Positions 13,452 to 42,116 of a DNA stretch of 59,304 nt are shown in pieces. The stretch comes from a virus: positions 1 to 59,304 of the IMG/VR virus record IMGVR_UViG_3300037264_003947; one strand, given 5' to 3'. Numbering within the stretch: the first letter of the stretch is position 1; every line of letters starts with the position of its first letter. The translations under genes were made by a program, and so were the position numbers. The notes beneath the pieces are model-generated. The model did no database searches. It had not been told where the DNA came from and worked only from the letters and a program-made list of their open reading frames with translations.

Positions 13452-13523
13452 TACGGGATGTAAGATTTGAACTTACGACTTTTACGGTGTAAACGTAACA
13501 CTCTACCGCTGAGTTAATCCCGC
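13452..13523 (-). tRNA. tRNA-Val (anticodon UAC)
   Basis: The acceptor GCGGGAT pairs with ATCCCGT and the D-arm ACTCAGCGGTAGAGT is canonical. The anticodon arm TTACG-TTTACAC-CGTAA reads GTA, and the T-arm GTAAGTTCAAATCTTAC is perfect. Confidence 0.88.
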
Positions 13524-13524
13524 A

Positions 13525-13716: not shown

Positions 13717-13724
13717 AAAAATAT

Positions 13725-13797
13725 TGGGAGTATCTGGATTTGATCCAGTTTTCATGGTTTATAAGACCAATGAGAACACCGTCCTCAACCTACTCCC
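13725..13797 (-). tRNA. tRNA, divergent, probable anticodon UAU (Ile)
   Basis: The acceptor GGGAGTA pairs perfectly with TACTCCC. The T-arm (CTGG-ATCAAAT-CCAG) is recognisable although position 54 is A. The loop CTTATAA gives UAU, which would read AUA. The D-arm is weak and the first anticodon-stem pair is a mismatch. The 3' end overlaps the HNH gene end by 13 bases. Confidence 0.6.
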
Positions 13798-14210
13798 TTG
13801 TTTGTTCTACCCCTAAATCTATAATTCTTATCAATTGCCGAATGACAATTTGGGCAAACAATTAAAAGATTTTCTCTTTTATTATTTTTATTGTCATCAT
13901 CTATATGATGAATTTCTAACCAAATTTGTTTTCCCAACCATTCATTGTTCTTACAAACTTCACAAGAATTTTTAGCTTCTTCAAGTAAAACCTTTCTCCT
14001 AAATTTAGGACTTAGTTTCTCATATAATCCTAGTTCTAAATAACTTTCATTGTTTACCCTGTGTCTCTCTACAGTTTTTTCCGTAGATTTTTTTCTATCT
14101 TCTTCTGTGAAGACATGTCCTCCACGATAAACGTGAGTTCTTCCCTTTAAGGATTCTCTTATCTTATTTTTAGTCTCTTCTGTATGTTTAAAACCAATTT
14201 CTCTAGACAT
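13785..14210 (-). CDS. HNH homing endonuclease with NUMOD3-like motif
   Basis: The start at ATG 14210 gives MSREIGFKHTEETKNKIRES, which resembles the NUMOD3 DNA-binding module of homing enzymes. The second half has CEVCKNNEWLGKQIWLEIHHIDDDNKNN and LLIVCPNCHSAID, a zinc-stabilised HNH core with the HH pair. It is placed between tRNA genes, a usual landing site for such elements. Confidence 0.85.
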   Translation of the reverse strand: MSREIGFKHTEETKNKIRESLKGRTHVYRGGHVFTEEDRKKSTEKTVERHRVNNESYLELGLYEKLSPKFRRKVLLEEAKNSCEVCKNNEWLGKQIWLEIHHIDDDNKNNKRENLLIVCPNCHSAIDKNYRFRGRTNKGVG

Positions 14211-14264
14211 TAACCTTATATTACATTTTACAATATATATCAATTTCTGTCAATTTATTTTACG

Positions 14265-14339
14265 CCAGAGTAGCGGGGTTCGAACCCACAAGTCGTCGCG
14301 TTCGTAGCGCGAAATTTTATCCATTTAAACTATACTCTG
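14265..14339 (-). tRNA. tRNA-Arg (anticodon ACG)
   Basis: The acceptor CAGAGTA pairs with TACTCTG, the anticodon arm TCGCG-CTACGAA-CGCGA is perfect, and the T-arm GGGTTCGAACCC is canonical. It reads CGU. The discriminator base is G. Confidence 0.85.
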
Positions 14340-14447
14340 ATAAAGCTCTTCTTTATACCACTAGATATAAGACACGCTTTAAAAATAGAACTTCTTCCAG
14401 ATTGAATAAGTGCTATTAAATAAAGCACTTTAATATTTACTAGTTTA

Positions 14448-14729
14448 TCATACATTATCTTTAATAAAAAACCTTCCATTTTCGCAAAGAACTGTTATAA
14501 TTTTTCCATCCAACAATCTCACTAGAAATTTTTTATACTTATACTCTTCGAAGATTTCAGAGCAAGTAAATGTTTTGCCAGAATCTGGTTCCTCAAATTC
14601 CGCAACTAATCCTTCGAAGGCATCGGGCGACCCAGCTATTTGCTTGGGTGCCCGCTTAAACGCCAATTTCAAATGATCTAAATTACTAAATCTAGTAAAA
14701 CTCGGTTGCACAAAAAGTTTTAGAGTCAT
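14448..14729 (-). CDS. Unknown 93-residue protein
   Basis: This is a beta-rich small protein (MTLKLFVQPSFTRFSNLDHLK...) with GSPDAFEGLVAEFEEPDSG in the middle. An inverted repeat AAGTGCT/AGCACTT (14408-14434) just downstream could end its transcript, although no T-run follows on this strand. No function is recognised. Confidence 0.6.
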   Translation of the reverse strand: MTLKLFVQPSFTRFSNLDHLKLAFKRAPKQIAGSPDAFEGLVAEFEEPDSGKTFTCSEIFEEYKYKKFLVRLLDGKIITVLCENGRFFIKDNV

Positions 14730-14764
14730 AAATTTTTCCTGAATTTTATTTTATCTTATCAAGT

Positions 14765-15610
14765 TCATTTGCTAGCAGTAGCAATAATTTCCCAGTTCTT
14801 GAAAGCATAATAATATTCAAGAATACTCTTTAAATCACCAGACTTATAGTTAGCTTCTGGAATTTCACCTTTACCATCTTCCCAATACTTAGCTATTATT
14901 TGATTTTCGTCATGGTTGAGAAGAGCAAAAATAACCCAGTCTTCACGGTTATTAAAAGTTCTCATTAAATCATCCATACGAGCAACAAGCAATCTTAAGC
15001 TTTCGGTTGGATTTTGTAAAGTTTCTCTTCCTTTATACGCCACTCTTAATGCCTGATTTTCTTTTACTATAGGTAAGTTAGCAATTTGCTGTCCCTCTAC
15101 CGTAAAGAAACCAGAAATACCAGTTTGATAATTATCGCTAAAACTTGGATTATAATTTGTCTTAACTCTCATATACGCGAGAGGCAAGAAAAAGTTTACA
15201 GAATTAACTGTATAAATTGCGTCATGATAAGTATTGAAAGCTAGTAAAAGTTGTTCATCGCTCATTTTTTGGCTTAGTGGAGAAGCCACTGTATAATATT
15301 TTATAATTTCATAGAACCTACTTCTCAACTTCTCTTTTCTCTCATTGATTGAAAGTCGTTCCCAACTATTTGCTGTTTCAATCTGTGAGCGAGAATCAAT
15401 TATCTCTCTCGTATTTTCTATATAATTTTTATAAAGTGCGTCTGCTGTTCTCTTATTAAAATAAACACCTAAACCCATAGCGGTAACAAACACTATTATT
15501 AATGCCACCATTATACCAACTAAACGTTGTGGTAATGTTTCTGGTTTAAGCTTACTTATAAAGTTATTCACTGCATTACCCTCTACTACATGTGTAATTT
15601 TTTTCTTCAT
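14765..15610 (-). CDS. Membrane-anchored protein with periplasmic helical domain
   Basis: The 281-residue protein has a cytoplasmic basic N-terminus, one transmembrane helix (about residues 30-51, LVGIMVALIIVFVTAMGLGVYF minus its ends), then a helical soluble part with SFSDNYQTGISGFFTVEGQQI. That part is slightly reminiscent of lytic transglycosylase-like helices but lacks a clear catalytic signature. The next gene upstream on this strand (15615) is a DNA methyltransferase five bases away. An envelope role is inferred from topology only. Confidence 0.55.
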   Translation of the reverse strand: MKKKITHVVEGNAVNNFISKLKPETLPQRLVGIMVALIIVFVTAMGLGVYFNKRTADALYKNYIENTREIIDSRSQIETANSWERLSINERKEKLRSRFYEIIKYYTVASPLSQKMSDEQLLLAFNTYHDAIYTVNSVNFFLPLAYMRVKTNYNPSFSDNYQTGISGFFTVEGQQIANLPIVKENQALRVAYKGRETLQNPTESLRLLVARMDDLMRTFNNREDWVIFALLNHDENQIIAKYWEDGKGEIPEANYKSGDLKSILEYYYAFKNWEIIATASK

Positions 15611-15614
15611 ACTT

Positions 15615-16364
15615 TTATCCTCTTAATCTATCTGTCGCAATCTGTATATATTTATCGTCTATATCAAAACCGATAAATTGTCTGTCTAAATCTTTTGCTA
15701 CTTTAAGTGTAGTGCCACAACCAGCAAATGGATCTAGAACTACATCGCCTTTATAGCTAAACATTTTAATCAATCTTCTAGGTAATTCTTCTGGAAACAT
15801 TGCTGGGTGTCCAAATTTTTTCATTTTTGTTTCTGGAGGAAAACTCCAAAGAGCAAGAGAGTTAGTTATAAACTCTTCTCTCGTTAAATCGCTCTCTCCT
15901 TTATGTATGAGTTTGCGACTGTTCTTATAGAAAACAAGTATGTATTCGAAAGGAGTAGGAAAAGAAGGACTTGATGGCGAAAGCCAACTACCCCAGCTAG
16001 TCCTATTGCTTACTTGAGATTTATTCCAAATTATTGTAGTGAAAGGTTTGTAACCAATGTCTATTAGAAACGAGGAAATGAAAACACTTGTTGGTATTGA
16101 ACCATTTTGCTGATCGCCAATATTTATACAAACACGGCCATCATCGGTGAGCTTATCCCATAGAGCAGTAAAAATACTTCTCAGCCAAGCAATATATTCT
16201 AGAAAATCTTTATCATCTTTATATGTATTATAGATGATTTTCTTTTTCTTCGCAGTATTGCCTAAATTATAAGGTGGGGAAGTTACACACAAATGAATAG
16301 AACTGTTTGGAAGGGAAGAAATCCCTTCCAAACAGTCCATCTTGTAAATGGAGTTTGGCTCCAT
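15615..16364 (-). CDS. DNA methyltransferase, SPPY type
   Basis: The 249-residue enzyme carries motif IV as CVTSPPYNLGNT (about residue 27) and, at the C-terminal end, motif I as DVVLDPFAGCGTTLKVAKD. This is the circularly arranged (beta-class) order. SPPY is usual for N4-cytosine enzymes but also occurs in N6-adenine ones, so the target base is uncertain. No target recognition domain beyond the core is obvious and there is no restriction partner nearby, so it is probably an orphan methylase protecting phage DNA. Its start overlaps the stop of the 16364-16798 gene. Confidence 0.88.
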   Translation of the reverse strand: MEPNSIYKMDCLEGISSLPNSSIHLCVTSPPYNLGNTAKKKKIIYNTYKDDKDFLEYIAWLRSIFTALWDKLTDDGRVCINIGDQQNGSIPTSVFISSFLIDIGYKPFTTIIWNKSQVSNRTSWGSWLSPSSPSFPTPFEYILVFYKNSRKLIHKGESDLTREEFITNSLALWSFPPETKMKKFGHPAMFPEELPRRLIKMFSYKGDVVLDPFAGCGTTLKVAKDLDRQFIGFDIDDKYIQIATDRLRG

Positions 16365-16798
16365 TACTTATCCTTGAAATATCTGAATGCTCTGTCCTGC
16401 ATTTCTCTCAAGCCGTCTAGCACCGCCGCTAACTTTGGCAGTCCACTAGTTGCGACATTGCCAATATGCTCGGATTCACCGAAATACTTGTTCTCAATAG
16501 TGTAATCCAAGAACTTAGCAATCCAGTAGTCTACTCCACGCATTGCTCTGCCAGCCGCTCGCTTTATGGCTTCCTCTCTGTCCCATGTGTCAATGTTATG
16601 GCACAAGCTCCAGCCGATACGATCCCTACCCAAAGCTACTATAACGCCAAACGGTCTGCCTTTCTGCTTTCCGTCAGTTGGAGTGGTTGGATCTGTCTTT
16701 GGGGCGTTTCTCCGCAAGTAGTTAACAAGTATTGGATACTTCTTACCACTGATAGTCACTGCGGAGCAATTGTCCATTTCCACTTTAAAATTAGGCAT
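16364..16798 (-). CDS. Unknown 144-residue protein
   Basis: The protein has a beta-rich first half (YPILVNYLRR, GVIVALGRDRIGWSLC) and a helical second half with EEAIKRAAGRAMRG and LDYTIENKYFG. Its DNA is clearly richer in G and C than its neighbours, as is the Ro60 gene upstream, so the pair may share a history. It touches the methyltransferase gene. No family is recognised. Confidence 0.6.
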   Translation of the reverse strand: MPNFKVEMDNCSAVTISGKKYPILVNYLRRNAPKTDPTTPTDGKQKGRPFGVIVALGRDRIGWSLCHNIDTWDREEAIKRAAGRAMRGVDYWIAKFLDYTIENKYFGESEHIGNVATSGLPKLAAVLDGLREMQDRAFRYFKDK

Positions 16799-16847
16799 AT
16801 TGCCTCCTATAAAAATTTATAGGGGGTTTAGAACCCCCTATTAAAAA

Positions 16848-18440
16848 CTAGAGATTTCCATTTGCGATCATCTGGATAAATCGTGGAGTCTCAGAGGAGA
16901 AACCAGCGATATCGTAGGACTTGTTATCCTTTGGATCGCTCAAAGAACTTCTATCGGAATAAGGAGTAAGAACAACGTAGATGATTTTCGCATCAGCGTT
17001 AATCGTGTCCCTATACTTCTTCATCAAGGTAACAGGTTGCTTGCCCTGCCAGTTCTGTCCATCAGTCCAAATCACAAGGTTATCAGCCTTGAGCTTGTTG
17101 TCGATGGCAAACTGAATTGCACTTTCAACGTCAGTTCCAGCAGGAGTCATTGGCATGAAGCCACGGCTCAAAGCTTCCTTGAAAGAGGTCGTCTTTCGAA
17201 GCTTTGGAAAATCGCTCGTTGTGGTCGTAAAGGCAGAAGTAAAGTAATACTTCTCTGCCTTGATCGTAGCAAGAGCCATGATCGTAGCGACCTCGGAAGG
17301 TGTCATCCACATCGTCTCCAAAGGAGCAGTCTGCATAGAGCCAGAAACGTCGATTGAATGATAGAATACCTTGTTGGTTGGCTCAAGAGCAGTGAAAGCC
17401 TCTTCAACCGCCTTCTCAAGAATATCCTCGACAACTGGATGAGCAACCCAAGTCAACTGAGAACGACCAAGAGTTCCACTAGCAGAGTAAATCTTGTAGG
17501 CAGAAACGATGTTGATAGGGTGAACCCTACCCTTCACCAATCTCTCTTTCGTGAACTTCTCTTCAAGAACCTTGAGGTTCTCAATGTTGGTGAAAATACC
17601 CTTGTTAGTCAAATTGGCCAAGTTACGCAAAGTAGCCGTAATAGGCATCTTGGTGAAAAGAGCTTCCCAAATACCCTTGGTTCGTGCTACGTTTGCTGGA
17701 ATCATTTCCTGAGTCAAACCGAAATCAAGGATTGCCTTGATGACATCTGCCTCTTTCATATTTCCAGTCTTGAGAGACTCATAAATCCCGATGAGAGGAA
17801 GAGTCTCAATAGAAGCCTTCTTATCAGCCATCCAAGCAAACAGATTGCTTTCGGATGCATCCCGTGGAACTGGCTTGATCTTCCGAAGAACATCACGACC
17901 AGCCCAATTGTATCTGCTCTGATACTTGAGGAACTGATACTCAAGGCCCTTTACATCATGAGACGTAATCCACTTCTCGACTGCGGAATGAATAAGTCTA
18001 CCAAAGCCACGAAGGCCCTTGGTATACTCAAGGAACTCATAAAGGTGAGAAGCGGTTCTCACAATCTTATTGAAGATCTGTGAGAAATAAACCTTTGCAT
18101 CAATACCTCCCATAGAGAGATAAACAAGAGCAAGCAAAGGCGTGTGGTTATTGATTCCATGATCACTTGCGTAAACGATTTCGTCCGCAACGACCTTTGG
18201 ATCTTTTGCAACCATGCAGGAAAGAATCTTGACGTTTTCAGTCGTCAACTCTTCCTTACCCTGATAGAAAAGGTTATTCTCAGAGCCAGTCAAGAGCCAG
18301 CGTCTAAGAGCCGTGAGGTCATCGGCCACGAAAGCCTTACCCCCAGCCATGTTCTCAGTCATTTCAGCCTCTCGGCCAGGAATAACCTGAGTAGCAAGAA
18401 CATCCTTCTTCTTTGTGTGGAACGTGTAGCCAGACTTCAT
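16848..18440 (-). CDS. rsr: Ro60/Rsr (TROVE) RNA-binding protein
   Basis: The 530-residue protein is a ring-shaped RNA-binding protein of the Ro60 family. The TROVE part (about residues 1-340) consists of helical repeats, with a characteristic start (QVIPGREAEMTENMAGGKAF), an arginine-containing RALLTGSE-like element seen as LRRWLLTGSENNLFYQG, and LRGFGRLIHSAVEKW. The C-terminal von Willebrand A domain has an intact metal site: DVSGSM at about residue 363, then PAGTDVESAI and IWTDGQNW. In bacteria Ro60 partners with Y RNAs, and with exonucleases, in RNA decay and stress. Six Y RNA-like units lie directly upstream on the same strand, so gene and RNAs are likely one system driven by the promoter at 19410-19438. 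Confidence 0.92.
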   Translation of the reverse strand: MKSGYTFHTKKKDVLATQVIPGREAEMTENMAGGKAFVADDLTALRRWLLTGSENNLFYQGKEELTTENVKILSCMVAKDPKVVADEIVYASDHGINNHTPLLALVYLSMGGIDAKVYFSQIFNKIVRTASHLYEFLEYTKGLRGFGRLIHSAVEKWITSHDVKGLEYQFLKYQSRYNWAGRDVLRKIKPVPRDASESNLFAWMADKKASIETLPLIGIYESLKTGNMKEADVIKAILDFGLTQEMIPANVARTKGIWEALFTKMPITATLRNLANLTNKGIFTNIENLKVLEEKFTKERLVKGRVHPINIVSAYKIYSASGTLGRSQLTWVAHPVVEDILEKAVEEAFTALEPTNKVFYHSIDVSGSMQTAPLETMWMTPSEVATIMALATIKAEKYYFTSAFTTTTSDFPKLRKTTSFKEALSRGFMPMTPAGTDVESAIQFAIDNKLKADNLVIWTDGQNWQGKQPVTLMKKYRDTINADAKIIYVVLTPYSDRSSLSDPKDNKSYDIAGFSSETPRFIQMIANGNL

Positions 18441-18514
18441 TTTCAGCTACCTCCTTGATAGAATTTGTGAGATAATTATACTAAATTTTTTGTTTTTTGT
18501 AAAGAGAAAACAGG

Positions 18515-18570
18515 GAACAAGTTTTTATCCAAAGGCTGCTTTTTCATAGTTAACCTTTAGAATTCAGTTC
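18515..18570 (-). ncRNA. Y RNA-like unit 6 (short)
   Basis: The unit starts GAACTGA and ends CTTGTTC, whose outer four bases pair (GAAC/GUUC). An inner helix CTAAAGG/CCTTTGG closes a loop beginning GTTAAC. It is the last unit before the Ro60 start at 18440 and carries no tRNA-like module. Confidence 0.5.
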
Positions 18571-18605
18571 TCTTTATTTAAGCAAAAAAAGTGCGGGAAC
18601 CAGGG

Positions 18606-18755
18606 CAACAAGAAAACGAATAATGATAAGCTTCATGATGATGGATGAATCTTATATCATTGCTGCTTTTTAAACCATGAAAAAGACTAGCGAAAACATA
18701 TCCTTAAATGCATCATTGGCTTCTAATGAATTTGTTAACGTCTTCTAGTCAGTTC
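18606..18755 (-). ncRNA. Y RNA-like unit 5 (long)
   Basis: The unit starts GAACTGA and ends CTTGTTG, a one-base departure from the other 3' elements. An inner helix AGAAGACG/CGTTTTCT closes a loop of about 120 bases starting GTTAAC. The loop contains no clear tRNA arms and no convincing reading frame. Confidence 0.5.
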
Positions 18756-18777
18756 CCGCTAAAGTTTCAAAGAAAAC

Positions 18778-18837
18778 GAACAAGAAATTGTCGATAGGCA
18801 CTAACTTTACAAATGTTAACCTAAAGACGAGCAGTTC
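18778..18837 (-). ncRNA. Y RNA-like unit 4 (short)
   Basis: The unit starts GAACTGC (TGC where the others have TGA) and ends CTTGTTC. An inner helix formed by GTC..TAGG and CCTA..GAC closes a small loop that starts GTTAAC. It follows tRNA-Gly directly. Confidence 0.5.
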
Positions 18838-18841
18838 GTTA

Positions 18842-18912
18842 AGCGACCAACGGGAGTCGGACCCGTTTGTAAACCTTGGCAAGGTTTCATAATACCGTTA
18901 TATCATGGTCGC
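18842..18912 (-). tRNA. tRNA-Gly (anticodon GCC)
   Basis: The acceptor GCGACCA pairs with TGGTCGC. The anticodon arm AAACC-TTGCCAA-GGTTT and the T-arm ACGGGTCCGACTCCCGT are complete. It is the only ordinary linear tRNA inside the Y RNA-like array and probably shares its transcript. Confidence 0.88.
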
Positions 18913-31443: not shown

Positions 31444-34125
31444 ATGTTTAGAGTATGGTCCGCTGGCGATGACTTAAAAAATGAAACCTTTTCCTCTGCT
31501 GATACAGCTAGACCTGGATATTATCTAGGTATTGAAGGATTAGAAGTAAGAGATAATGTCAGTAAGGTAGATCTAGGCAGACCCTTAAGAAATATTTGGG
31601 AAAATACACAACACTTAAGCGATTTTGATGATAGAATGTTCTATCATGTCAAGGGTGATAGTTCTGGCGTATTTAATAGATCGTTAGTCAATGGATTTTC
31701 TATCGGTGATACTGATATAGTAACCGTAACGGTAAATCCTGGAACTGGTGATACTATTAGGTTCTATGCTCGTCTAGGACCTGGAATTGCTTATCATAAT
31801 AAACATGTAGTTGTCAATAGACCTCAAACTCAAATAGCAGAAAGACAAATATCTAAAATACTTAAGCTTGATGACTGGAAAGATGAAGGAGTATCAATTA
31901 GATACTTCTTTAATACTGACATGTTTCAAGCGAAAATAACAAAGAGAAATACCAACGCCGTTCCAATAAGTTATTACTTTGTAGATCCTGCCTTCTATGG
32001 TGACAGCACAAAGTGGGGCGATAGTAGAGTTGGTTATTCTTCTTCATTAAAACTATTCGAAGCAATATACAATACCGCAATTTTCACTTCTAGCTGTAGG
32101 ACTTCATTAGGCGATAGCATCGACTTAATACAATGCGAACCAGTAGTAAACTTTAAGAAATCACAAATAGTTTTTGCTGGTGACACAATTTTCTGGGTAG
32201 TTAAGGCAAATGGAAGCGTGGTAGGAACAACTACTTTCCCCGCTACTACAGACCTTTGCCTATGGGCCACAAAAGTAAATATTACGGCACAAGCAGGAAC
32301 TACAGTAAATAAGGGTGACTCTAGAAAATTCATTCCTTTATACCACGATTTCGGTCAGCACCTATTCCTAAATGTTCCTAAAGAATGGGCAGATACAAAT
32401 ACTTTAAGTATGACTAGACCTTGGAGTGATACAAGAAATCACCCCTATACTTTTGTAACTAATAGAAATAGTTTCATTGTATTCTTAAGACAAACTGCTG
32501 GAGTTGGAACTAGTCCAATACTAGGATGGACAGAAGACAATGCCGTAGGAGTCACTCCAGCTAGATCTGGAGTTTTCTATGGAAACAAAGATTTAATCAT
32601 AAGTAGATGGACTAACGCAGGAGATACTCTAGGTAGAGCTTGGGCTTCTGTAATGAGTATGTCTGGTGACTCTTGGACTTTCTATGGCGATAAAGGCTTA
32701 AGAAATGGTAGTTTTTTTCCAATGGCTTCTTCAGGGCAAAATCTTGGAAGACCTTCAAATACTTGGAGAGTTTGGGGAGACTCTGGAATATTTACTAGAA
32801 GTTTAAGTATAGGCGATACTGTTTTTGTAAATACTGTTAAATCTAATAAATTAATAGGTGATACTGTTTTTGTAAATACTGTTAAAGCATTAAAGTTTGT
32901 AGGTGATACTGTTTTTGTAAATACTGTTAAAGCATTAAAGTTTGTAGGTGATACTGTTTTTGTAAATACTGTTAAAGCATTAAAGTTTGTAGGTGATACT
33001 GTTTTTGTAAATACTGTTAAATCTAATAAATTAATAGGTGATACTGTTTTTGTAAATACTGTTAAATCTAATAAATTAATAGGTGATACTGCTTTTGTAA
33101 ATACTGTTGCTGTTAAAAAACATTTAGCAGCAGACACTATCTTTAATTATGGAGGAGTTTATAGTACTTTTGCTGGACATAAATTAATAGGTGACACTGC
33201 TTTTGTAAATACTGTTAAAGCAAAGAAACTTATAAGCGATAGCATATTTACTGGAACATTAAAGACCGCCGGTTCTACAAATATAGGTACCACTTTAAAT
33301 GTAACAGGTCATACTATTTTAAATACTTTGGGGACAACAGGTGCTGCCACTGTTGGAACTACTTTAGGAGTAACAGGAGCTACTATACTTAGCTCTACTT
33401 TAGCTGTAAATGGTGATGAACTCACTAGTACATCAGCTTCATTTAATTTATTGAATTCTCCTACTACTATAACTATTGGATCTACCACTGGAACTACAAC
33501 TATAAGATCTAAAAGAACAGTTGTTGGAACTACTGATGGTGACTCCTTTATAGTAAGAGGTGGAATAGTAAGACTTGGTAGCGGTGACTCTAACGGAATA
33601 TTCATGTTAAGCAGAAGAATATCTGCTGGTGATACTGGAAAGAGAATAACTACTGCTGGTGGTGATACAGGCATTCTATTTAGAGGTTCTATAAACGCTT
33701 ATAAAGTTTATAACGCAGTATGGAATGACTACGCAGAAGCTTTCACCTTTGATCCAAAAGAAAAACATCTAGTAGCTGGATATGTTTATGCACAAGGTCC
33801 AGATGGAGCAGTAAGGGCTAGAAGAAGAGCAGATAAAGCAACACTAGGAGTTTTCTCTGATACTTACGCAATGCTACTTGGTTCTAGAGGTTGTATATCA
33901 GAAGATAAGAATGGAACTAAAATACCTATAGCTCTAGCTGGTAAGGTTCAAATTTATGTTAGAGGAAAATTAGGTATAGGCGATTTGTTAGTTACTGATA
34001 AAAATGGATTTGGTGTAAAGGCCAACTTCTTTGAGCGAATATTTAAATCAGATAGAATACTTGGTAAAGTTCTAGAAAATCATAATGGGAATAATCCTTC
34101 TAGAATATGGATGTTAGTGAGGTAA
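31444..34125 (+). CDS. Tail fibre protein
   Basis: The 893-residue protein is beta-rich throughout. About residues 455-600 hold a run of 15-residue repeats around GDTVFVNTVK, followed by fibre-like stretches (NIGTTLNVTGHTILNTLGTT) and a C-terminal domain with NAVWNDYAEAF, the WNDYAE element found in many phage fibre ends related to Peptidase_G2-type autoproteolytic domains. It contains 23 Gly-Asp-Ser/Thr triplets. It heads the host-recognition cluster. The receptor is unknown. Confidence 0.8.
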   Translation: MFRVWSAGDDLKNETFSSADTARPGYYLGIEGLEVRDNVSKVDLGRPLRNIWENTQHLSDFDDRMFYHVKGDSSGVFNRSLVNGFSIGDTDIVTVTVNPGTGDTIRFYARLGPGIAYHNKHVVVNRPQTQIAERQISKILKLDDWKDEGVSIRYFFNTDMFQAKITKRNTNAVPISYYFVDPAFYGDSTKWGDSRVGYSSSLKLFEAIYNTAIFTSSCRTSLGDSIDLIQCEPVVNFKKSQIVFAGDTIFWVVKANGSVVGTTTFPATTDLCLWATKVNITAQAGTTVNKGDSRKFIPLYHDFGQHLFLNVPKEWADTNTLSMTRPWSDTRNHPYTFVTNRNSFIVFLRQTAGVGTSPILGWTEDNAVGVTPARSGVFYGNKDLIISRWTNAGDTLGRAWASVMSMSGDSWTFYGDKGLRNGSFFPMASSGQNLGRPSNTWRVWGDSGIFTRSLSIGDTVFVNTVKSNKLIGDTVFVNTVKALKFVGDTVFVNTVKALKFVGDTVFVNTVKALKFVGDTVFVNTVKSNKLIGDTVFVNTVKSNKLIGDTAFVNTVAVKKHLAADTIFNYGGVYSTFAGHKLIGDTAFVNTVKAKKLISDSIFTGTLKTAGSTNIGTTLNVTGHTILNTLGTTGAATVGTTLGVTGATILSSTLAVNGDELTSTSASFNLLNSPTTITIGSTTGTTTIRSKRTVVGTTDGDSFIVRGGIVRLGSGDSNGIFMLSRRISAGDTGKRITTAGGDTGILFRGSINAYKVYNAVWNDYAEAFTFDPKEKHLVAGYVYAQGPDGAVRARRRADKATLGVFSDTYAMLLGSRGCISEDKNGTKIPIALAGKVQIYVRGKLGIGDLLVTDKNGFGVKANFFERIFKSDRILGKVLENHNGNNPSRIWMLVR
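32812..33115 (+). repeat. 45-base tandem repeats in the tail fibre gene
   Basis: Seven consecutive 45-base units encode GDTVFVNTVK followed by either SNKLI or ALKFV, in the order SNKLI, ALKFV, ALKFV, ALKFV, SNKLI, SNKLI, then a degenerate unit; one more copy lies at 33190. Near-identical DNA makes copy number changes by recombination likely. Confidence 0.9.
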
Positions 34126-34128
34126 GCA

Positions 34129-34773
34129 ATGGCTAAAGAAAATAGAATTTATTTAAATAGTTATAGAAAACCCTTTTATTTCGACAAAACTGGTGAAACA
34201 AAAAAATTGCCTAGTTGGGAAATACTGGAAGAATTTTTACAGAATATTGTTTTTAAAAAAGAAAGTTCTGGAGACACTGATTTTCTAACAATAAATCATT
34301 TTCTCATTGATTTTATTCCAACTAGTATGCTTACTTGGGGAATGAAATATGTTTCTTCTAGCCCAAAACAATATAAAATAAATTTTGCTTTTTCTATGTA
34401 TAATCTAGATCAAGCAAGTTTAGCAAAAAGTTGGTTTGATTCCTTTAAGCCTTACTTAAAAGATAGAGCTTCATATTTAATTTCTGCTACTGATTTTACT
34501 ACAACTATAAATAATTATCTAGAAAGAAAAAAAGTGACTGGTGATATGGCTATAGCAGATTTTGAAGATATTATTTATGTAGATAATGATGATTCTAAAA
34601 CTTTATATGATAATGTAAAAGTTTTAATGGGAAAGTTTGATGAAATAATAATCATTTCAAACATTAAAACACTTGACTTAAACTTACTATATTCTAGTTC
34701 GGAAGATGATATAATCTCTTTCCCTACCAAGAAATTAAAACTCATAAATAAGTATGATTTGAAAATAATATAA
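34129..34773 (+). CDS. Unknown 214-residue tail-cluster protein
   Basis: The protein (MAKENRIYLNSYRKPFYFDK...) mixes helices and strands and ends FPTKKLKLINKYDLKII, with a KKLKL element like that of the repeated module elsewhere. It lies three bases after the tail fibre and ten before the first octapeptide-repeat protein. A chaperone or fibre-associated role is possible from position; no family is recognised. Confidence 0.55.
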   Translation: MAKENRIYLNSYRKPFYFDKTGETKKLPSWEILEEFLQNIVFKKESSGDTDFLTINHFLIDFIPTSMLTWGMKYVSSSPKQYKINFAFSMYNLDQASLAKSWFDSFKPYLKDRASYLISATDFTTTINNYLERKKVTGDMAIADFEDIIYVDNDDSKTLYDNVKVLMGKFDEIIIISNIKTLDLNLLYSSSEDDIISFPTKKLKLINKYDLKII

Positions 34774-34782: not shown

Positions 34783-35151
34783 ATGGCATATACTTGGATA
34801 GGCTCAGTAGTTCGTGGTGCTAAAATAACAAATGAACTCGTATCAGAAATGAGAGTGCATGGGGATACTATTGCCACATGGAACTTAGCAAGAAATCCAT
34901 CTCCTGCTGCTTGTACCTCATATAATAAATGGGTATATCCATTAGCTTCTGGAGCAGATTCATATATAGCTACATTCAGCCAAATATTTGATGAGCTTCA
35001 ATATAACTTAAATCATTGGAGAGTAAATAACTGGTGCAGAGGATATGCTGTAACAGCTCATGTAACTCAACATAGTAGTAAGCAACTATCTTATAACGCT
35101 ACACAATATTCTCCAGCTTGCAGTCAATGTGTAGCACAAGGATCAGGTTAA
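34783..35151 (+). CDS. Octapeptide-repeat protein A, candidate radical SAM substrate
   Basis: The 122-residue protein has a non-repetitive N-terminal part (MAYTWIGSVVRGAKITNELV..., about residues 1-80) ending in a helix FDELQYNLNHW. Then come four eight-residue repeats: AVTAHVTQ, HSSKQLSY, NATQYSPA, CSQCVAQG. The first part looks like a virion-attachment or leader region, the second like a modifiable core. The same two-part plan is found in the next gene. Both lie immediately upstream of two radical SAM genes. Substrate status is inference. Confidence 0.6.
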   Translation: MAYTWIGSVVRGAKITNELVSEMRVHGDTIATWNLARNPSPAACTSYNKWVYPLASGADSYIATFSQIFDELQYNLNHWRVNNWCRGYAVTAHVTQHSSKQLSYNATQYSPACSQCVAQGSG

Positions 35152-35152
35152 T

Positions 35153-35788
35153 ATGGCCAAATTTACTTCAAGTCAGGGAAATTTTGCTTGGACCACAAGT
35201 GGTGCTCCTCCAACTGGAGTTGATAGATCTAGAACAGAATTTAGTGCCTATATAACTGAAGTCAAGGCCAATTTTGACTGGTTACAAGATAATTTAGAAA
35301 GTTGTTGGGCTGAAAAAGTTACTAGATGTGCTACTAGATATGATACTGTATTAACTACTGCTTATGGAGAAAGACATACAACTGCTAATGATACACAATA
35401 TGATGTTCAGCATACTACCAAGTATAGTTCTAATAATAGCACTTATTGCAGTCTTCAAAATGCTTCAATAAACTGGTCAATAAATAGCACAAATCACTCT
35501 GCAATTAATGGAACTGATCGAAATGTAGATAATGTCGTTGTAGATTCTTCAGTCTATTTGACCAACAATGCTCCGCAAAATGGTTCCGTCTACTCCCCTT
35601 ATAATGCCTCACGTTGTACATCTTATAATTCCACAATTCATTCTTCTGTAAGATCTACGCAATACGGTAGCAATTGTTCTACTGTACAAACATCAGATCA
35701 TACTGGAAGAAATGGCTCTAACTATACAGGAAATAATGCCACAAATCACAATAGTGTAAATGCTAATTTAGATTGTCAAGTCGGTTAA
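35153..35788 (+). CDS. Octapeptide-repeat protein B, candidate radical SAM substrate
   Basis: The 211-residue protein has a leader-like region (residues 1-54) ending WLQDNLESCWAE, then nearly nineteen eight-residue repeats to the C-terminus (residues 55-211, with one half-repeat at 175-178). The consensus is N-[ASG]-[ST]-x-[YHCR]-[ST]-x-x. Examples are NSTYCSLQ, NASINWSI, NGSVYSPY, NASRCTSY and NSTIHSSV. Cys, Tyr and His recur at position 5, and N-x-S/T at positions 1-3. The regular register would suit a beta-solenoid or a row of enzyme-made cross-links. No known family is recognised. Confidence 0.65.
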   Translation: MAKFTSSQGNFAWTTSGAPPTGVDRSRTEFSAYITEVKANFDWLQDNLESCWAEKVTRCATRYDTVLTTAYGERHTTANDTQYDVQHTTKYSSNNSTYCSLQNASINWSINSTNHSAINGTDRNVDNVVVDSSVYLTNNAPQNGSVYSPYNASRCTSYNSTIHSSVRSTQYGSNCSTVQTSDHTGRNGSNYTGNNATNHNSVNANLDCQVG

Positions 35789-35798
35789 AAGGAATGTT

Positions 35799-37154
35799 AT
35801 GCATCAATTTATCTCAACAGAAGTGCCGCAAGCGTCGGTTTGTAATTTAGATTGCGTTTATTGTTATATACCCAAAAATAAACAACTAACAAAAATACAT
35901 AAAAAATGGGCAGAAAAAATTAGAGATGGCACTCACAATGAAGTAATGTCAGAATATTTTAATGGCAACTTACAGGCAATTAGTTTCTGGGGTGGCGAAC
36001 CAACCCTAGGCATGAACGATTTACAAAGAATAGATGACTTACTTGATTTCAACAAAAATTTAACTAACCTTTCTACTTCTACAAATTTTGCTAGAATAGA
36101 AAATTTAGAATTTTTAATAAAAAAATTAGATGATTACCAAAAAAGAACTGGGAGAAATCTTCATTTGGGTATACAGGTTTCTTTAGATGGAACCAAAGAA
36201 AACACTGAAAAAAATAGGGGAAAAGGAACTTACGATAAAGTAGTAAGTAATTTGCTAAGACTAAAAGAATTCTCTAAAGAGATAAATTTTTTGAAAGTTA
36301 GAATTCACATAAAGGCTACCAATACAGCAGAAGATTACGAAGGGTTTGCCAAAAATCCTCAAACTTTAAAAGATTTCCTAGATTCATTTAACTATATAAA
36401 TAACCTAATTTTATCCACACCTTTTCCAGAAAACTGGGATGTGTCTTTAAAAACTCTACCTACTTTATCGTTGCCAGGAGATTATACTAAAGAAGATGGA
36501 GAAAATTTTTATAAGTATCATGTAGAGCTTAAAAAATTATTAGATACTGACTATAAGAATTATGTCCAAGAAGATGACTATATATTTAGATTCAGAACAC
36601 TGTGGGCAACTCAATATGAATTGAATAGAAATAATTTCATATTTCAATGCTCGGCAGGAAATTGCCAATTACCCATAGATCCAGAAGCAATGGTTCATAT
36701 GTGTCATGGAAGTTTCTGGTTCAACCAAGAAAATTATTTAGAAGAAACAGAAAATTCGGCAGCTGGATGGTGTGAGGGTGAAAGAATAGTAGATTTTGAT
36801 GCCGATAAATTCTGGAATGTAACTAAATCCACTATGGTAGAATATAGAGATAAGTATAATTTTGCTAGATCCAAATATACACTACGATGTTTTAATGACA
36901 TGATAGATCATTATTTAGCAATTACTTACTCAACCATTTTAATGCTAGCCAAAGCGGGACAGATTAGTGAAATTTACAAAGATGATGATTGGGCTAAAAT
37001 GTTTGCTTATTTTTTGGTATTAAAATCTGGTTGCTGGATGAATGGTTTATTAACAACTGGATCAATTTTTGTAATGCCTTTAAGCATATATAGAATATAT
37101 GGAAATGGGACTTTTGAATTTATAGTTAGAGATTTTGCAAGTAAAATACTATGA
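35799..37154 (+). CDS. Radical SAM enzyme 1
   Basis: The 451-residue enzyme has the cluster motif CNLDCVYC (about residues 16-23), FWGGEPTLG as the SAM-binding GGE element, and GIQVSLDG on a later strand, a classic TIM-barrel radical SAM core. A C-terminal region with CSAGNC and MCHG may bind an auxiliary iron-sulfur cluster. Such enzymes generate a 5'-deoxyadenosyl radical to modify peptides or proteins. Its start lies ten bases after the octapeptide-repeat gene and its end overlaps the next small gene, so substrate, maturases and helper are one unit. Confidence 0.85.
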   Translation: MHQFISTEVPQASVCNLDCVYCYIPKNKQLTKIHKKWAEKIRDGTHNEVMSEYFNGNLQAISFWGGEPTLGMNDLQRIDDLLDFNKNLTNLSTSTNFARIENLEFLIKKLDDYQKRTGRNLHLGIQVSLDGTKENTEKNRGKGTYDKVVSNLLRLKEFSKEINFLKVRIHIKATNTAEDYEGFAKNPQTLKDFLDSFNYINNLILSTPFPENWDVSLKTLPTLSLPGDYTKEDGENFYKYHVELKKLLDTDYKNYVQEDDYIFRFRTLWATQYELNRNNFIFQCSAGNCQLPIDPEAMVHMCHGSFWFNQENYLEETENSAAGWCEGERIVDFDADKFWNVTKSTMVEYRDKYNFARSKYTLRCFNDMIDHYLAITYSTILMLAKAGQISEIYKDDDWAKMFAYFLVLKSGCWMNGLLTTGSIFVMPLSIYRIYGNGTFEFIVRDFASKIL

Positions 37155-37357
37155 ACATAAAAGAAAAATTAATTGAAGACTGTAAAAATCTTATTATATT
37201 AAATAAACATCTAATGAATTTAATAGAGAATGAGTTAAGATTTAAGCCAGAGGTCGTTGATGCTCTTATAGAATTTTCAGATATTAGCAAAGAAGAAATG
37301 CCAAAACATACACTTCATAGCTTCTGGAAAGAAAGAATTACAAAACAAAAGATATGA
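37151..37357 (+). CDS. Small helical protein between the radical SAM genes
   Basis: The 68-residue acidic/basic helical product (MNIKEKLIEDCKNLIILNKH...) overlaps both neighbours by four bases. Small proteins in that position in RiPP loci are often recognition elements or precursors, but no RRE-type beta pattern is seen here. Function is unknown. Confidence 0.55.
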   Translation: MNIKEKLIEDCKNLIILNKHLMNLIENELRFKPEVVDALIEFSDISKEEMPKHTLHSFWKERITKQKI

Positions 37358-38685
37358 AAAAAGAATATATAGATCAAAATAGAGAGTTATTTAAAAACTT
37401 TCTAGAGGCAACTTTTTTTAAAAATTGGAGAGAGTCAAGTAGAGATAAAATTGCAATAGAAAATTATCAATCTGTAGAAATGTCTATAGGTTATAAATGC
37501 GATCTTCACTGCAAGTATTGTTATTATAGCAGATATGGTAAAGAACTCTATCAAAACAAACCAGTCAAGGCAAACGACATATTAAAAAATACTGAAAAGT
37601 TAATGAACTTTTTCGTTAAAAATAATATGTGTGTAAAAATAGAACTTTTTTCTGGAGATCCTTTTAATCTTCCTTATGTTTGGGATTATTTTGATATTAT
37701 TCTAAAGTATTCAGAGATGATGCCAATTGAAAAAAGGCCAGGGTATCTTTCTATACCTACAAATCTTTCTTTTTTACGATCAGAAGATGATACAAAATTA
37801 AATAAGATAAAAGATTATATATTAAAATTTGAGAAAATAGATGTTCCGTTTTATTTATCTGGTTCTGTTGATGGTCCTTTCATGGATAAGTTTAATAGAC
37901 CTTCGATAAAACAATTTAATTATGAAAAAAATTTTTATGATAAAGTATTAAAGTATGGGAAAGAGATTCGTTATGGTTATCATCCAATGATATACTCTAA
38001 CAATATAGAAAACTGGATAGAAAACTTTCTCTGGTTTTATTATTTAACAGAAAACCTATATTTACTAGAAGTAAGAAATGCTGAATGGACCGAAGAACAA
38101 TGTGTTCAAATTTATTATTTAATGAAGTTTATAATTCATTTTCTCTATAATGCAAAAGATAAAGATATTAAAAAAATGAACGAAATTTTGCAAGCAAATA
38201 AAGGATACAATATTTTGATGAGTCCTTTTATGAGAACTGGGAGAGGTTTGGGTTGCTCAATGCAAAGTACTTTAAATTTTCAAATGAATGACCTAACTAT
38301 TGTTCCTTGCCATAGAACTTCTTATAATGAATTCGTCGCTGGTAGCATGATCCTAAATGATGATGGATCTTATGATTTTAATCCAAAAAATGTGGAATAT
38401 TATTTAGCAGAACAATCAACTCAAATAAATAGGACTTATCCATGTGTTTCTTGCTCTGTCAATGAAATGTGTAGTGGTGGATGTTTGGGTTCAAATTATG
38501 AATCAACGGGAGATCCTTTCGTTCATCATCCAAATATGTGCAGAATGGAACATTATAAAATAGCGGGAATAATACATGGGTTTGATGAAATTGGTTTATT
38601 GGACGAATTTATGCGTGGCCAGACTGAAAGAAAAAAATCACAAGTTCAATATGTTTTAAAGACTTTTGGAGAAAAAAATGGATAA
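37354..38685 (+). CDS. Radical SAM/SPASM enzyme 2
   Basis: The 443-residue enzyme has CDLHCKYCYY (about residues 47-56), ELFSGDPFNL in place of GGEP, and YLSGSVDGPF. Its C-terminus carries a SPASM-type set of cysteines: CSMQ, VPCHRT, CVSCSVNEMCSGGC and NMC, enough for two auxiliary clusters. SPASM enzymes typically install thioether, carbon-carbon or epimerised residues in peptides. It differs clearly from the first enzyme, so the two may make different modifications. Confidence 0.85.
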   Translation: MKKEYIDQNRELFKNFLEATFFKNWRESSRDKIAIENYQSVEMSIGYKCDLHCKYCYYSRYGKELYQNKPVKANDILKNTEKLMNFFVKNNMCVKIELFSGDPFNLPYVWDYFDIILKYSEMMPIEKRPGYLSIPTNLSFLRSEDDTKLNKIKDYILKFEKIDVPFYLSGSVDGPFMDKFNRPSIKQFNYEKNFYDKVLKYGKEIRYGYHPMIYSNNIENWIENFLWFYYLTENLYLLEVRNAEWTEEQCVQIYYLMKFIIHFLYNAKDKDIKKMNEILQANKGYNILMSPFMRTGRGLGCSMQSTLNFQMNDLTIVPCHRTSYNEFVAGSMILNDDGSYDFNPKNVEYYLAEQSTQINRTYPCVSCSVNEMCSGGCLGSNYESTGDPFVHHPNMCRMEHYKIAGIIHGFDEIGLLDEFMRGQTERKKSQVQYVLKTFGEKNG

Positions 38686-39223
38686 AGATTTCAATTTAGT
38701 AGAAATAGAATTAAGAAAAGATTTTATTATAGTAGAACCTGATTTAGCATTTTTTACAAATGATAATAGTTTTCCAATGTTCTTAAAAGATTTCATGGAA
38801 AAATTATTTAACAACATTAAGGAAGCTATGGCCGATAAGGAAGTTTCCGAATTTAAAGATGTTAAAAATTGTTTGAAAAGATTTTTTCAATCAATTATTG
38901 ATGCCAGTAGTTTTAAATTGTTGGACTATAGAAGCATTTCCTTCTTAACCAATTTTTTACTTTTAATAAACAATTGGTTGTTAATGATAGAACAGGGAAA
39001 TCTTTTGCCATTTTTTGATTTATCTAAAGAAGAAGTTGATAGTCTCAAAAAAACTAGCGAAGATTTAACGGAAATAATTACTTTAAATTTGGATGTAGAA
39101 AATTTACACAATTTAACAAATAGATTAATGAAAAAAGCAGAACAAATTCTAGCATCAGTTCCATCTAACTTCAAAATAAGCGAACATTTTTTCAACGTCT
39201 TAAAGAAAGAAATAACTAAATGA
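38678..39223 (+). CDS. Unknown helical protein of the radical SAM cluster
   Basis: ATG 38678 with TTTGGAG upstream is preferred over a TTG at 38666. The 181-residue product is entirely helical (KDFMEKLFNNIKEAM, SFLTNFLLLINNWLLMIEQ). It overlaps the radical SAM gene by eight bases and the next gene by four. No family is recognised; a partner protein is plausible. Confidence 0.55.
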   Translation: MDKDFNLVEIELRKDFIIVEPDLAFFTNDNSFPMFLKDFMEKLFNNIKEAMADKEVSEFKDVKNCLKRFFQSIIDASSFKLLDYRSISFLTNFLLLINNWLLMIEQGNLLPFFDLSKEEVDSLKKTSEDLTEIITLNLDVENLHNLTNRLMKKAEQILASVPSNFKISEHFFNVLKKEITK

Positions 39224-40056
39224 CATTTATAAATAAAGAAAAGTTGCCAACAACAAATTTTTTATATTCCCTTAAGCATTTAGCAATTCCTAATAAAGTC
39301 ATTTTGACTAAATTGGAAATTAAAGATGTTGAATCATTAGAGACGCTAATATTTTTTAATCCTAATTACGATGATTTAAAATTAACTGAAGATCTAAACA
39401 AAAAAATAATATTGTTTTTTTCTTATATTGATGAAGAACTACTTCCACTTCTAGGACATCAGAACATATTAAAGATAATAGTTTTTGATGATTTGGATGC
39501 TTTATTTCTTACAAAAAATCATATAAGAAATTTTGAATTGGCCTTTCCTTCTATAGATAAAATAGATACTACAGATGTGTATAACTATTTTTCTATCTTT
39601 AATGATATACAAGATGTTGATGTAAGAAAAATAATTGAAGCCAAAGCATTATGTAATGTAAGTTATTTTGGTTATAAACATATAAACAAGACACTAGACT
39701 TCAATAAGTTAAAAGACATAATGTATGCAGGAATTAAGATAGTTCCTTTTGCAATATTTGACATGCACGAAAAAATAGCTAGATTTCAATATACAATAGA
39801 TTTTTCAAACAAGCATTTCCCAATAGTTTCATTTTACTCTGCTCTTTGCAACAAAATTCCAATCCATTATGGTAATAGATACTTTAAATGGATGGCTTCT
39901 GAAACTCAAAATCCATCTGCAGAAACTCTTGGCAAGATATTAGCAGATGAGAATTTTAGAAAAAACATCATAGAAAAACAACAAGCAAGAATGTCAGATG
40001 TTTTTAATAATAGACGAAAAGTGGAAGAAATTTTAAATGAAATTAAACCAATGTAA
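39220..40056 (+). CDS. Glycosyltransferase-like protein 1
   Basis: The 278-residue alpha/beta protein has a Rossmann-like alternation and a C-terminal part with PIHYGNRYFKWMAS and AETLGKILADENFRKNIIEK, like the final helix of family-4-type glycosyltransferases. The donor-site motif is weak, so this is a tentative call based on shape and the neighbouring gene. It is translationally coupled on both sides. Confidence 0.4.
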   Translation: MTFINKEKLPTTNFLYSLKHLAIPNKVILTKLEIKDVESLETLIFFNPNYDDLKLTEDLNKKIILFFSYIDEELLPLLGHQNILKIIVFDDLDALFLTKNHIRNFELAFPSIDKIDTTDVYNYFSIFNDIQDVDVRKIIEAKALCNVSYFGYKHINKTLDFNKLKDIMYAGIKIVPFAIFDMHEKIARFQYTIDFSNKHFPIVSFYSALCNKIPIHYGNRYFKWMASETQNPSAETLGKILADENFRKNIIEKQQARMSDVFNNRRKVEEILNEIKPM

Positions 40057-40879
40057 CGGACCAGTAAATAAATACTACGAACAATTATTAAATAATGGAA
40101 TCATTAAAGAAAGCGATAATGTTTTAGTAGATCCGCGTAACGAAAAGGAATTTCCTGATATTAACGATTTAGTTATCTTACAACAAGGAGATCTTTCTTG
40201 GAATGTAAAAAATTTTTCAAAAATAAAGTATATATTTACTCCATCTCTTTATCTATATGAAAAATATAGTTATAGTAAAAAAATATTTTTAATACCTTTT
40301 GCAATTGAGCCTGAATATAAAAAAATAAGTAAATGGTCTGATAGAGAAAACGCCCTTTATTATCACGGAAGAATAATTTCTGAAAAATTAGGAATAATTG
40401 GCTTAACGAAATTATGTTCAGAAGGAATAAAAATAGTTCTACGAGGACCAATTTGTAAAGAATACTGGACCGATAAAGATATTGAGCGTCCAGAATTTAT
40501 TTCCTATAAAGAAAAAGTCTCTAAACTCAATATAGAATTTTTACCACCCACAGATGATAAAGAAGTAATAATAAACGATCTTAACAAATACAAATTTTAT
40601 TTCACTCTATCTAATGGGGAATGCTTTAATCTCGCTCTACAAGAAGCAATAGCTTGCGGAACCATACCTTTAGTAAAACCTAATTTTGCGTATTGGTGGG
40701 CAGAACACTTAATACTACAATTTGAAAATACCAATGAACTAATTAAAAAATTCAATGGTCTAAAAGATATGGACATGGACGAATATTCTAGTCTACTTTC
40801 AAAAGAATTGCATAAAAGATTTAATTATGAATCTTTAATTAAATCGTATGAGTATCAGAAAAAAGAATTATTTCCTTAA
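40037..40879 (+). CDS. Glycosyltransferase-like protein 2 (GT-B type)
   Basis: The 280-residue protein resembles the C-terminal half of GT-B enzymes: FLIPFAIEPEYKK, ALYYHGRIISEKLGI at the start of the second Rossmann fold, and NGECFNLALQEAIACGTIPLV with the donor-binding E-x(7)-E-like element. The acceptor half is short. It may add sugar to the repeat proteins or fibre. The gene ends inside the convergent cysteine desulfurase gene (41-base overlap). Confidence 0.65.
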   Translation: MKLNQCNGPVNKYYEQLLNNGIIKESDNVLVDPRNEKEFPDINDLVILQQGDLSWNVKNFSKIKYIFTPSLYLYEKYSYSKKIFLIPFAIEPEYKKISKWSDRENALYYHGRIISEKLGIIGLTKLCSEGIKIVLRGPICKEYWTDKDIERPEFISYKEKVSKLNIEFLPPTDDKEVIINDLNKYKFYFTLSNGECFNLALQEAIACGTIPLVKPNFAYWWAEHLILQFENTNELIKKFNGLKDMDMDEYSSLLSKELHKRFNYESLIKSYEYQKKELFP

Positions 40880-42116
40880 TTAAAATATCTATTTCTTCTA
40901 TCGTATTAAATCTATTTAAAGAAATTCTAACACTTTTAAATGCCTCTTCATCTGTAAGATCTAAAGCCTTTAATACATAAGAAGGTTTCTTTTCGTTAGC
41001 ATTACAGGCAGAACCAGCAGAAATAAAAATGCCTTTATTAGATAAATGTTCTATCAACTTCTCGCCATATATTTCTTTAAATGTTATAGAAGATGTATTT
41101 ACCAAACGAGGAGAGTTCTTACAATTAATTGTTGCTCCAAACTTAACTAATTGATCTTCCATATAGTTTCTTAAAGCTTCTATTTTTGGAAGATCGCTTT
41201 CTACCAAATTATCAATTGCCTCTCCCATTCCTACAATTAAAGGCATATTATAAGTTCCAGCCCTCTTATCCCATTCTTGATGCCCGCCTTGAATAAAAGA
41301 TTTAATTGTATTCATGTCTTTAATATATAAAACTGACACTCCAACAGGACCACCAAATTTATGAGCAGTAAAAGTAGCAAAATCAAGATTTCCTACCTTT
41401 ACATCTTTCATCTTTCCTAAACATTGGCACATATCAGAGTGAACTAGCGCATTAGGATTAGCAAACTTAATCTCATTAACATAATCATGAATAGGAAGTA
41501 TGCTACCAGTTTCATTATTGGCAGTCATTATACTTACTAGGCAAGGTTCTTTTGAAAGTTCTATGACTTTTTCTAGATCTATATAGCCGTTGTTAAATAC
41601 ACCTACTTCAAAAGCATTCATTTTTTTGGAAGAATTAATGATGCAACTATGTTCAATAGAACTTATAATGACCTTATTAAAAGTTCCTTTAATTACCATG
41701 TTATTAGATTCTGATCCAGAAGCGGTAAAAATAAGATTAGATGGTTTACAACCAATCTTATTTGCTATTTTAGCTCTAGCTTGTTCTAGATAAGCTCTAG
41801 TTCTTTCTCCAGCTTCATGTCTAGAAGAAGGGTTGCCAACTACATCATACATTTCTCTTATTTTATTTGCCACTTTAGGCAACACTGGATGCGTAGCATT
41901 GTTGTCTAAATAAATAAATTGATTAAATTTCTTACTAGTTAGCTCGTGCATTCTTTCACTTTTAGGTGATGGACATAAAGGACTATAAGAAGCATAATCA
42001 GAACTACAAGAAGAAAGCATTTCTTTTCTAATTTCTTCTCTTATTTTTTCTCTATCAAAATCTAAAATTGGTAAATCAATTTTTTTTGTTTCTTGTGTTT
42101 GCCATTCATATCTCAT
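40839..42116 (-). CDS. Cysteine desulfurase, NifS/IscS-like
   Basis: The 425-residue PLP enzyme converts cysteine to alanine and enzyme-bound persulfide. Visible are YLDNNATHPV, HEAGERTR, SGSESNN, HSDMCQ, the PLP lysine in TAHKFGGP, and the catalytic Cys in SAGSACNANE. An N-terminal extension of about 65 residues (with SCSSDYASYSPLCPSPKS) is not part of the usual fold. Transcribed toward the radical SAM genes, it may supply sulfur for their clusters or for tRNA thiolation. It is rare in phages. Confidence 0.88.
   Translation of the reverse strand: MRYEWQTQETKKIDLPILDFDREKIREEIRKEMLSSCSSDYASYSPLCPSPKSERMHELTSKKFNQFIYLDNNATHPVLPKVANKIREMYDVVGNPSSRHEAGERTRAYLEQARAKIANKIGCKPSNLIFTASGSESNNMVIKGTFNKVIISSIEHSCIINSSKKMNAFEVGVFNNGYIDLEKVIELSKEPCLVSIMTANNETGSILPIHDYVNEIKFANPNALVHSDMCQCLGKMKDVKVGNLDFATFTAHKFGGPVGVSVLYIKDMNTIKSFIQGGHQEWDKRAGTYNMPLIVGMGEAIDNLVESDLPKIEALRNYMEDQLVKFGATINCKNSPRLVNTSSITFKEIYGEKLIEHLSNKGIFISAGSACNANEKKPSYVLKALDLTDEEAFKSVRISLNRFNTIEEIDILIKEIILFSDTHTI

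Follow-up and report, generated by a model that had tools for sequence, protein, structure and literature searches.

The window analysed here was the whole 59,304-base IMG/VR viral contig IMGVR_UViG_3300037264_003947, which came from a T4-related phage as judged by its gp20-type portal (1.8e-77), terminase and baseplate wedge. At positions 34783-40879 it carried a row of eight open reading frames (ORFs), all on the plus strand, with neighbours overlapping by 4-20 bp or spaced 1-10 bp apart. Two of them encoded repeat proteins (A1 and A2) and two encoded radical S-adenosylmethionine (radical SAM) enzymes (rSAM1 and rSAM2). A preliminary description of this DNA, made from the sequence alone, had proposed that such a cassette modified a virion protein by radical chemistry, and its positions and tight packing of the eight ORFs were confirmed. 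It had also placed the cassette directly behind the tail fibre gene. A gene for an 893-aa tail-fibre-like protein was indeed located upstream (31444-34125, plus strand), with 15-residue repeats, a 45-bp tandem repeat and a weak match to the tail fiber family phrog_19602 (E 0.0078), but a plus-strand ORF for a 214-aa protein with no family match intervened (34129-34773).

Repeat proteins A1 and A2

The A2 protein (211 aa, 35153-35788) consisted of an N-terminal domain (aa 1-60) and, from aa 63, about 36 successive tetrads of the form [N/Y/H/C]-x-[S/T]-x, in which position 1 was mostly N, Y, H or C and position 3 S or T. This core (35339-35785), the presumed modification site, had a period-4 contrast of 0.69 against 0.10 in shuffled sequences (z 11.4). 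At the DNA level, the tetrad pattern matched once in the window and in 0 of 100 dinucleotide shuffles. An origin of the tetrads from a diversity-generating retroelement or a simple DNA tandem repeat was considered; Tandem Repeats Finder gave only a 28-bp array inside A2. The A1 protein (122 aa, 34783-35151) combined a divergent N-terminal domain with a short C-terminal repeat (HVTQ HSSK QLSY NATQ YSPA CSQC). Thus, the tetrad repeat of the two proposed repeat proteins was real, but in the first of them it was confined to the C-terminus and ran for only about 6-9 tetrads.

The same plan was found in the related A proteins described below. In most of them the period-4 core exceeded shuffles, and the family-wide repeat consensus, [D/N/Y/H]-x-[S/T/G]-x, was placed C-terminal to a conserved helical N-terminal domain. 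Across 30 A proteins, position 1 of the tetrads was occupied by D (26%), Y (17%), N (17%) or H (13%), with 3% each of E and Cys, and position 3 by T (21%), S (20%) or G (18%); the cores were 38-193 residues long. The N-terminus was built from a domain unit, W..(6-8)..G..I....E[IVLM]R.N.D, present in one copy in A2 and mostly in two copies in A1, and this unit usually ended with a Cys right before the core. A hidden Markov model (HMM) of the unit matched the window A2, which was outside its training set, at 0.0032, and the window A1, whose own unit was part of the training set, at 3e-10. The same model gave no match to tail fibres, and the idea of an N-terminal domain shared with them was dropped. 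In the AlphaFold2 prediction of A2, computed from 11 sequences, the N-terminal helix reached a predicted local distance difference test (pLDDT) score of about 72 and the core had no confident structure.

A further element, [ND]-[ND]-[DEQ]-H-[GATS]-T-Y, recurred in the A cores of eight related contigs (L127, L225, L230, L231, L234, L236, L238 and L240) and was not present in the window. Additionally, two viral contigs without radical SAM genes (L143:8808-10346, minus strand, and L151:2902-4708, plus strand) encoded similar proteins in which a stretch of [NYH]-x-A-T tetrads interrupted a framework common to both.

Radical SAM enzymes and helper proteins

The rSAM1 gene (35799-37154) encoded the CxxxCxxC and WG(G)EP motifs together with Twitch/SPASM-like C-terminal cysteines, and rSAM2 (37354-38685) was a radical SAM/SPASM protein with the GRGxGCSxQ motif and the pattern CHR...CxxC...C...C...C. 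The earlier assignment of two radical SAM enzymes, the second of SPASM type, was therefore correct. rSAM1 matched the Pfam Radical_SAM model above its cut-off (1.1e-9); rSAM2 matched it below the cut-off (7.4e-5) and matched the SPASM model TIGR04085 at 1.3e-6. Among the relatives, which were 31-42% identical to the window protein in rSAM2, the rSAM1 family kept CxxxCxxC, WG.EP, SxDG and C284/C302-H303/C412, and the rSAM2 family kept CxxxCxxC and the complete set of SPASM cysteines. Both enzymes thus belonged to the radical SAM superfamily with SPASM/Twitch extensions, where CxxxCxxC and the auxiliary-cluster cysteines were invariant alignment columns.

Both enzymes scored far under every NCBIfam cut-off. 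The nearest models were PapB, which was matched by all 19 rSAM2 and all 15 rSAM1 members, and the cyclophane-maturase models YhhB, GrrM/OscB and AmcB, which were matched by 14-15 of the 15 rSAM1 members, always below cut-off. Profile matches to PDB entries (8vpo, 5wgg, sulfatase maturase, ChlB) were at the superfamily level.

Two small helical proteins were encoded in the cassette. The 68-aa protein (37151-37357), which the preliminary description had counted as a cassette part, was seen in the window only. The conserved helper was instead protein D (38666-39223, 185 aa from a TTG start, with an alternative ATG at 38678), predicted by AlphaFold2 to be a helical bundle (pLDDT 78.5). D was weakly conserved across the family, carried the C-terminal motif PPAxELSKHYL, and had no PDB fold match and no known family. 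The row ended with two glycosyltransferase-like (GT-like) proteins, and only one of them held up as such. GT-like protein 2 (40037-40879, 280 aa) was a distant GT4/GT-B member (phrog_4356, 2.3e-4). GT-like protein 1 (39220-40056, 278 aa) had no family match, and showed a weak likeness to the C-terminal half of GT-B proteins and a weak profile match to GT-like protein 2. A GT4-type gene was an optional companion, found in or near the cassette in 7 of 19 contigs including the window; Glycos_transf_1 was detected in 6 of these 7 GT family members (best 1.8e-8).

Conservation of the cassette across phages

We found the cassette in 18 further viral contigs. They were mostly unrelated, and included podovirus-like contigs, contigs bearing a tape measure protein (TMP), contigs of up to 223 kb and some that read TGA as Trp. 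Single-sequence scans of viral contigs with rSAM1, rSAM2 and A2 returned no relatives, and tblastn of the window proteins against GenBank phages gave only distant radical SAM proteins or none. The relatives were found in three rounds, namely by the tetrad DNA pattern, by an alignment of the rSAM1 pair and by an rSAM2 motif scan. The tetrad pattern mostly returned [DN][VL]TG fibres and simple repeats, of which those lacking a radical SAM gene were discarded, with one true relative among the matches. This 35-kb record (IMGVR_UViG_3300026544_000012, L012) encoded an rSAM1 homologue and an rSAM2 (35%, 1.4e-68), with a tail fibre gene ahead of two A genes, rSAM1, rSAM2 and D in succession, and its phrog_1216 portal was unlike the T4-type portal of the window. 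The rSAM1 alignment led to L196 and L197, TGA-as-Trp contigs that had two A proteins, both radical SAM genes and D.

The third round was blind to the substrate. We wrote the motif GRG[IL]GCSxQ[ST] from three rSAM2 sequences and scanned all viral contigs with it. It gave 21 matches, 19 of them true family members, and 16 new contigs, whose neighbourhoods were inspected in regions of up to 20 kb. rSAM1 was present in all of the new contigs, and paired A proteins adjoined the radical SAM genes in 14 of the 15 evaluable contigs; the contig G031 was not evaluable since it ended inside rSAM1. With the window and L127 included, and with the alike contigs L226 and L237 counted once, the A pair accompanied both enzymes in 17 of 18 distinct evaluable contigs. 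The preliminary description had suggested looking for the same gene order in related phages, and had named radical SAM genes conserved without the repeat proteins as a finding that would refute it. The gene set recurred in 18 contigs and three orders, and the refuting pattern was not the one observed.

Most contigs had the order A1-A2-rSAM1-rSAM2-D. The order was rSAM1-rSAM2-D-A-A-GT in L224 and L233, and rSAM1-D-A-A-rSAM2-D in L230 and L232. Therefore, the conserved unit was the gene set and not merely one syntenic stretch. Moreover, distances between rSAM1 and rSAM2 sequences covaried (Mantel r 0.88, p 0.0005), as did those between the A2 N-terminal domain and rSAM2 (r 0.70), which indicated joint inheritance. 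The upstream neighbour was a tail fibre gene in L127, L231 and L232 and the central fibre gene J in L235. A tail fibre or TMP gene was located within a few genes in L225 and L239, and in L239 the TMP gene was two to three genes before A1.

In GenBank phage isolates, the rSAM2 relatives did not exceed about 25% identity and tblastn detected no A protein, and a search of plasmids gave no rSAM2 relative. Extra radical SAM genes were common in the cassette contigs. For example, four of them of 110-223 kb (G026, G029, G035 and G036) had five to seven radical SAM matches each, compared with two in the cassette; such additional genes would fit anaerobic hosts. TGA was read as Trp in L196, L197, L205 and L209 (IMGVR 3300035537_000062, 3300036941_000100, 3300007537_000402), where in-frame TGA codons of the radical SAM genes occupied Trp positions of the relatives, as in phages of a recoded host.

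Comparison with known radical SAM systems

Radical SAM maturases have been described for peptide natural products of bacteria, in which they tailor mostly short peptides. The preliminary description had likened the locus to a pathway for ribosomally synthesised and post-translationally modified peptides (RiPPs) placed among tail genes. The substrate-like repeat proteins, the dedicated maturases and the tail-gene context agreed with this. The N-terminus did not, since it was a conserved and often duplicated helical domain and no typical short leader. The locus had a RiPP-like layout, with a separate putative recognition part and a presumed core beside candidate maturases, and these parts co-occurred. 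In the 18 contigs, there was no match above cut-off to the PqqD-type RiPP recognition element (RRE) model PF05402, which a divergent RRE could escape, nor to the ABC transporter model PF00005, where the contigs may be fragments.

Among the closest known systems was the PapA/PapB ranthipeptide system, which forms Cys-X3-Asp/Glu thioethers. Like rSAM2, for which it provided the best NCBIfam model, PapB is a radical SAM/SPASM enzyme that acts on evenly spaced side chains in a four-residue register, linking Cys to the Asp four residues on, Cys-X3-Asp (PMC9413430). Unlike it, the cassette had Cys-poor cores, two different radical SAM enzymes, two long substrates and a phage tail setting, and membership was rejected at 55.6 bits (rSAM2) and 49.9 bits (rSAM1) against a cut-off of 340 (NF047865). 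The His-Xaa-Ser (HxsA-D) system likewise combines two radical SAM enzymes with a repeat protein of H/N/Y-x-S/T character, but it has different anchor residues, is not known to be linked to phage tails, and its models gave the window rSAM1 31.0 of 370 bits (HxsB) and 27.6 of 267.9 bits (HxsC). The CXXX-repeat system was also rejected (TIGR04115, 35.6 of 350 bits; Cys not at every fourth position). Cyclophane maturases (YhhB, GrrM/OscB, AmcB), whose usual partners are aromatic and Asn/Asp residues, differ in acting on 3-residue motifs in short cores.

Two further comparisons concerned the repeat itself. In the TVG system (TvgA/TvgB), each repeat of a tetrapeptide core is modified by a radical SAM enzyme (PMC9062424), but its motif is TVGG and a single such enzyme is encoded with a peptidase and transporters on a bacterial chromosome. 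Phage tail fibres with [DN][VL]TG tetrads share the tetrad register in tail proteins, but have Gly at position 4 and other N-termini, and 0 of 24 other tetrad-bearing records had a radical SAM gene. Among cultured phages, those of the Campylobacter CP220 group have several radical SAM genes, with gp023 25% identical to one rSAM2 of the family; they were rejected as carriers, as no tetrad protein or A-type domain was near these genes. By their defining tests, none of the named systems was the one encoded here. We found no phage tail radical SAM system described in the open-licence literature, and we know of no precedent for a radically modified virus tail part.

Two other arrangements were noted. 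L199 (IMGVR_UViG_3300047195_000680, 1765-4571) and L200 encoded a phage protein in which three HINDLR-like N-terminal repeats (A-type unit HMM 0.0013) preceded a C-terminus rich in Cys, and two radical SAM genes of SPASM type came next; this was a sister arrangement of the A-type plan with a different core. In a Krumholzibacteriota metagenome-assembled genome (L202:1133-3779), a gene for a 379-aa protein whose Cys residues were regularly spaced (CxSPEQxxxC-like) was immediately upstream of a 511-aa radical SAM/SPASM gene; this was likely an uncharacterised bacterial RiPP-like pair.

Proposed function and alternatives

Given the gene content and order, the repeat, the conservation across phages and the joint inheritance described above, we consider it probable that phages use the cassette as a dedicated means of modifying a pair of tail-associated repeat proteins. 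Judging by layout and co-occurrence, A1 and A2 are very probably the substrates of the two enzymes. They may reasonably be taken as virion parts from their position after tail fibre or tip genes, and the product might be a cross-link. In this model, A1 and A2 would be encoded with the tail-fibre genes, and their helical N-terminal domains would serve as a handle for enzyme recognition, tail anchoring or both. rSAM1 and rSAM2, probably aided by D, would take a hydrogen atom from each tetrad's anchor residue. In D, N, Y and H alike, C-beta adjoins an sp2 carbon, in a carbonyl or a ring, that weakens the C-beta-H bond, and this would suit radical attack at C-beta. Each tetrad would then receive one bond or group, most likely a side-chain cross-link in an i/i+3 or i/i+4 register, and an otherwise unstructured arm would stiffen into a rod or adhesin at the tail, which a glycosyltransferase could decorate further in some phages. 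The Cys-to-Asp spacing of PapB, equal to the tetrad register, and the AlphaFold2 prediction of an unfolded, unmodified A2 core were counted in favour of this model. In its full form, that paired virion tail proteins are stapled covalently into a rod by two radical SAM enzymes across unrelated phages, with radical chemistry as a step of virus assembly, the proposal is tentative, and we hold it as somewhat less than an even prospect.

Several observations weigh against this model. The 37.6-kb fragment G030 had both radical SAM genes and D without A proteins. The A N-terminal domain members matched no PHROG tail family, and the proposed virion location of A1 and A2 is thus based on gene position. 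Residue-pairing statistics of the cores gave no clear i/i+4 donor-acceptor signal, and Cys was scarce in the cores, so the thioether of PapB is not directly transferable and another bond would be needed. Finally, the AlphaFold2 result on the A proteins was built from 11 sequences only.

Alternatively, the enzymes could epimerise or otherwise alter single residues (D-amino acids, oxidation), giving a D/L-alternating or protease-proof arm. Such a change would agree with the missing pairing signal and with regular spacing that has no obligatory partner residue, and two different enzymes on one substrate would permit two different changes. We regard it as somewhat unlikely, as the nearest family models were cross-linkers, though all below cut-off. 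A phage-borne RiPP, whose tetrads are matured and which is released as a bacteriocin or a signal of infected cells, would explain the precursor-like layout and the likeness of the maturases to RiPP enzymes. This is distinctly unlikely, as neither ABC_tran nor PqqD was matched above cut-off, the genes were within tail clusters of very different phages, and the cores were long and always paired. Position, pairing and missing export parts together argue for a structural product.

The repeats could also fold and function unmodified as fibre arms, like the [DN][VL]TG tetrads, with the enzymes as mere neighbours that act on tRNA, a cofactor or another protein. Many phage tail proteins do carry tetrads without radical SAM genes, as in the 24 records above, but the co-occurrence in the blind scan, which persisted across the three arrangements of the genes and with their joint inheritance, and the placement of the enzymes beside peptide maturases make this quite improbable. 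As for glycosylation of tetrad Asn, Ser or Thr as the main purpose, with the radical SAM enzymes making or priming the site, the window core does have N-x-S/T tetrads and the GT4-type gene recurs in or near the cassette in six other contigs. It is very improbable, given that 12 of 19 contigs had no such gene by the cassette and the anchor was often D, Y or H.

The viral cassette described here is conserved among phages with little else in common, in whose tail-gene clusters it is found with its long, repetitive probable substrates. Should the products be tail parts, radical chemistry would be the means by which phages build or harden their host-contacting organ, and A1 and A2 would be naturally suited as a scaffold for stapling repeats in tandem.

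Other genes in the window

A gene for a NifS-type cysteine desulfurase (40839-42116, minus strand) was convergent with the end of the cassette and could supply Fe-S clusters for the radical SAM enzymes. Elsewhere on the minus strand (16848-18440 and 11770-18912), a phage gene of the phrog_850 RNA-binding family (1.2e-48) was located beside seven tRNA genes.
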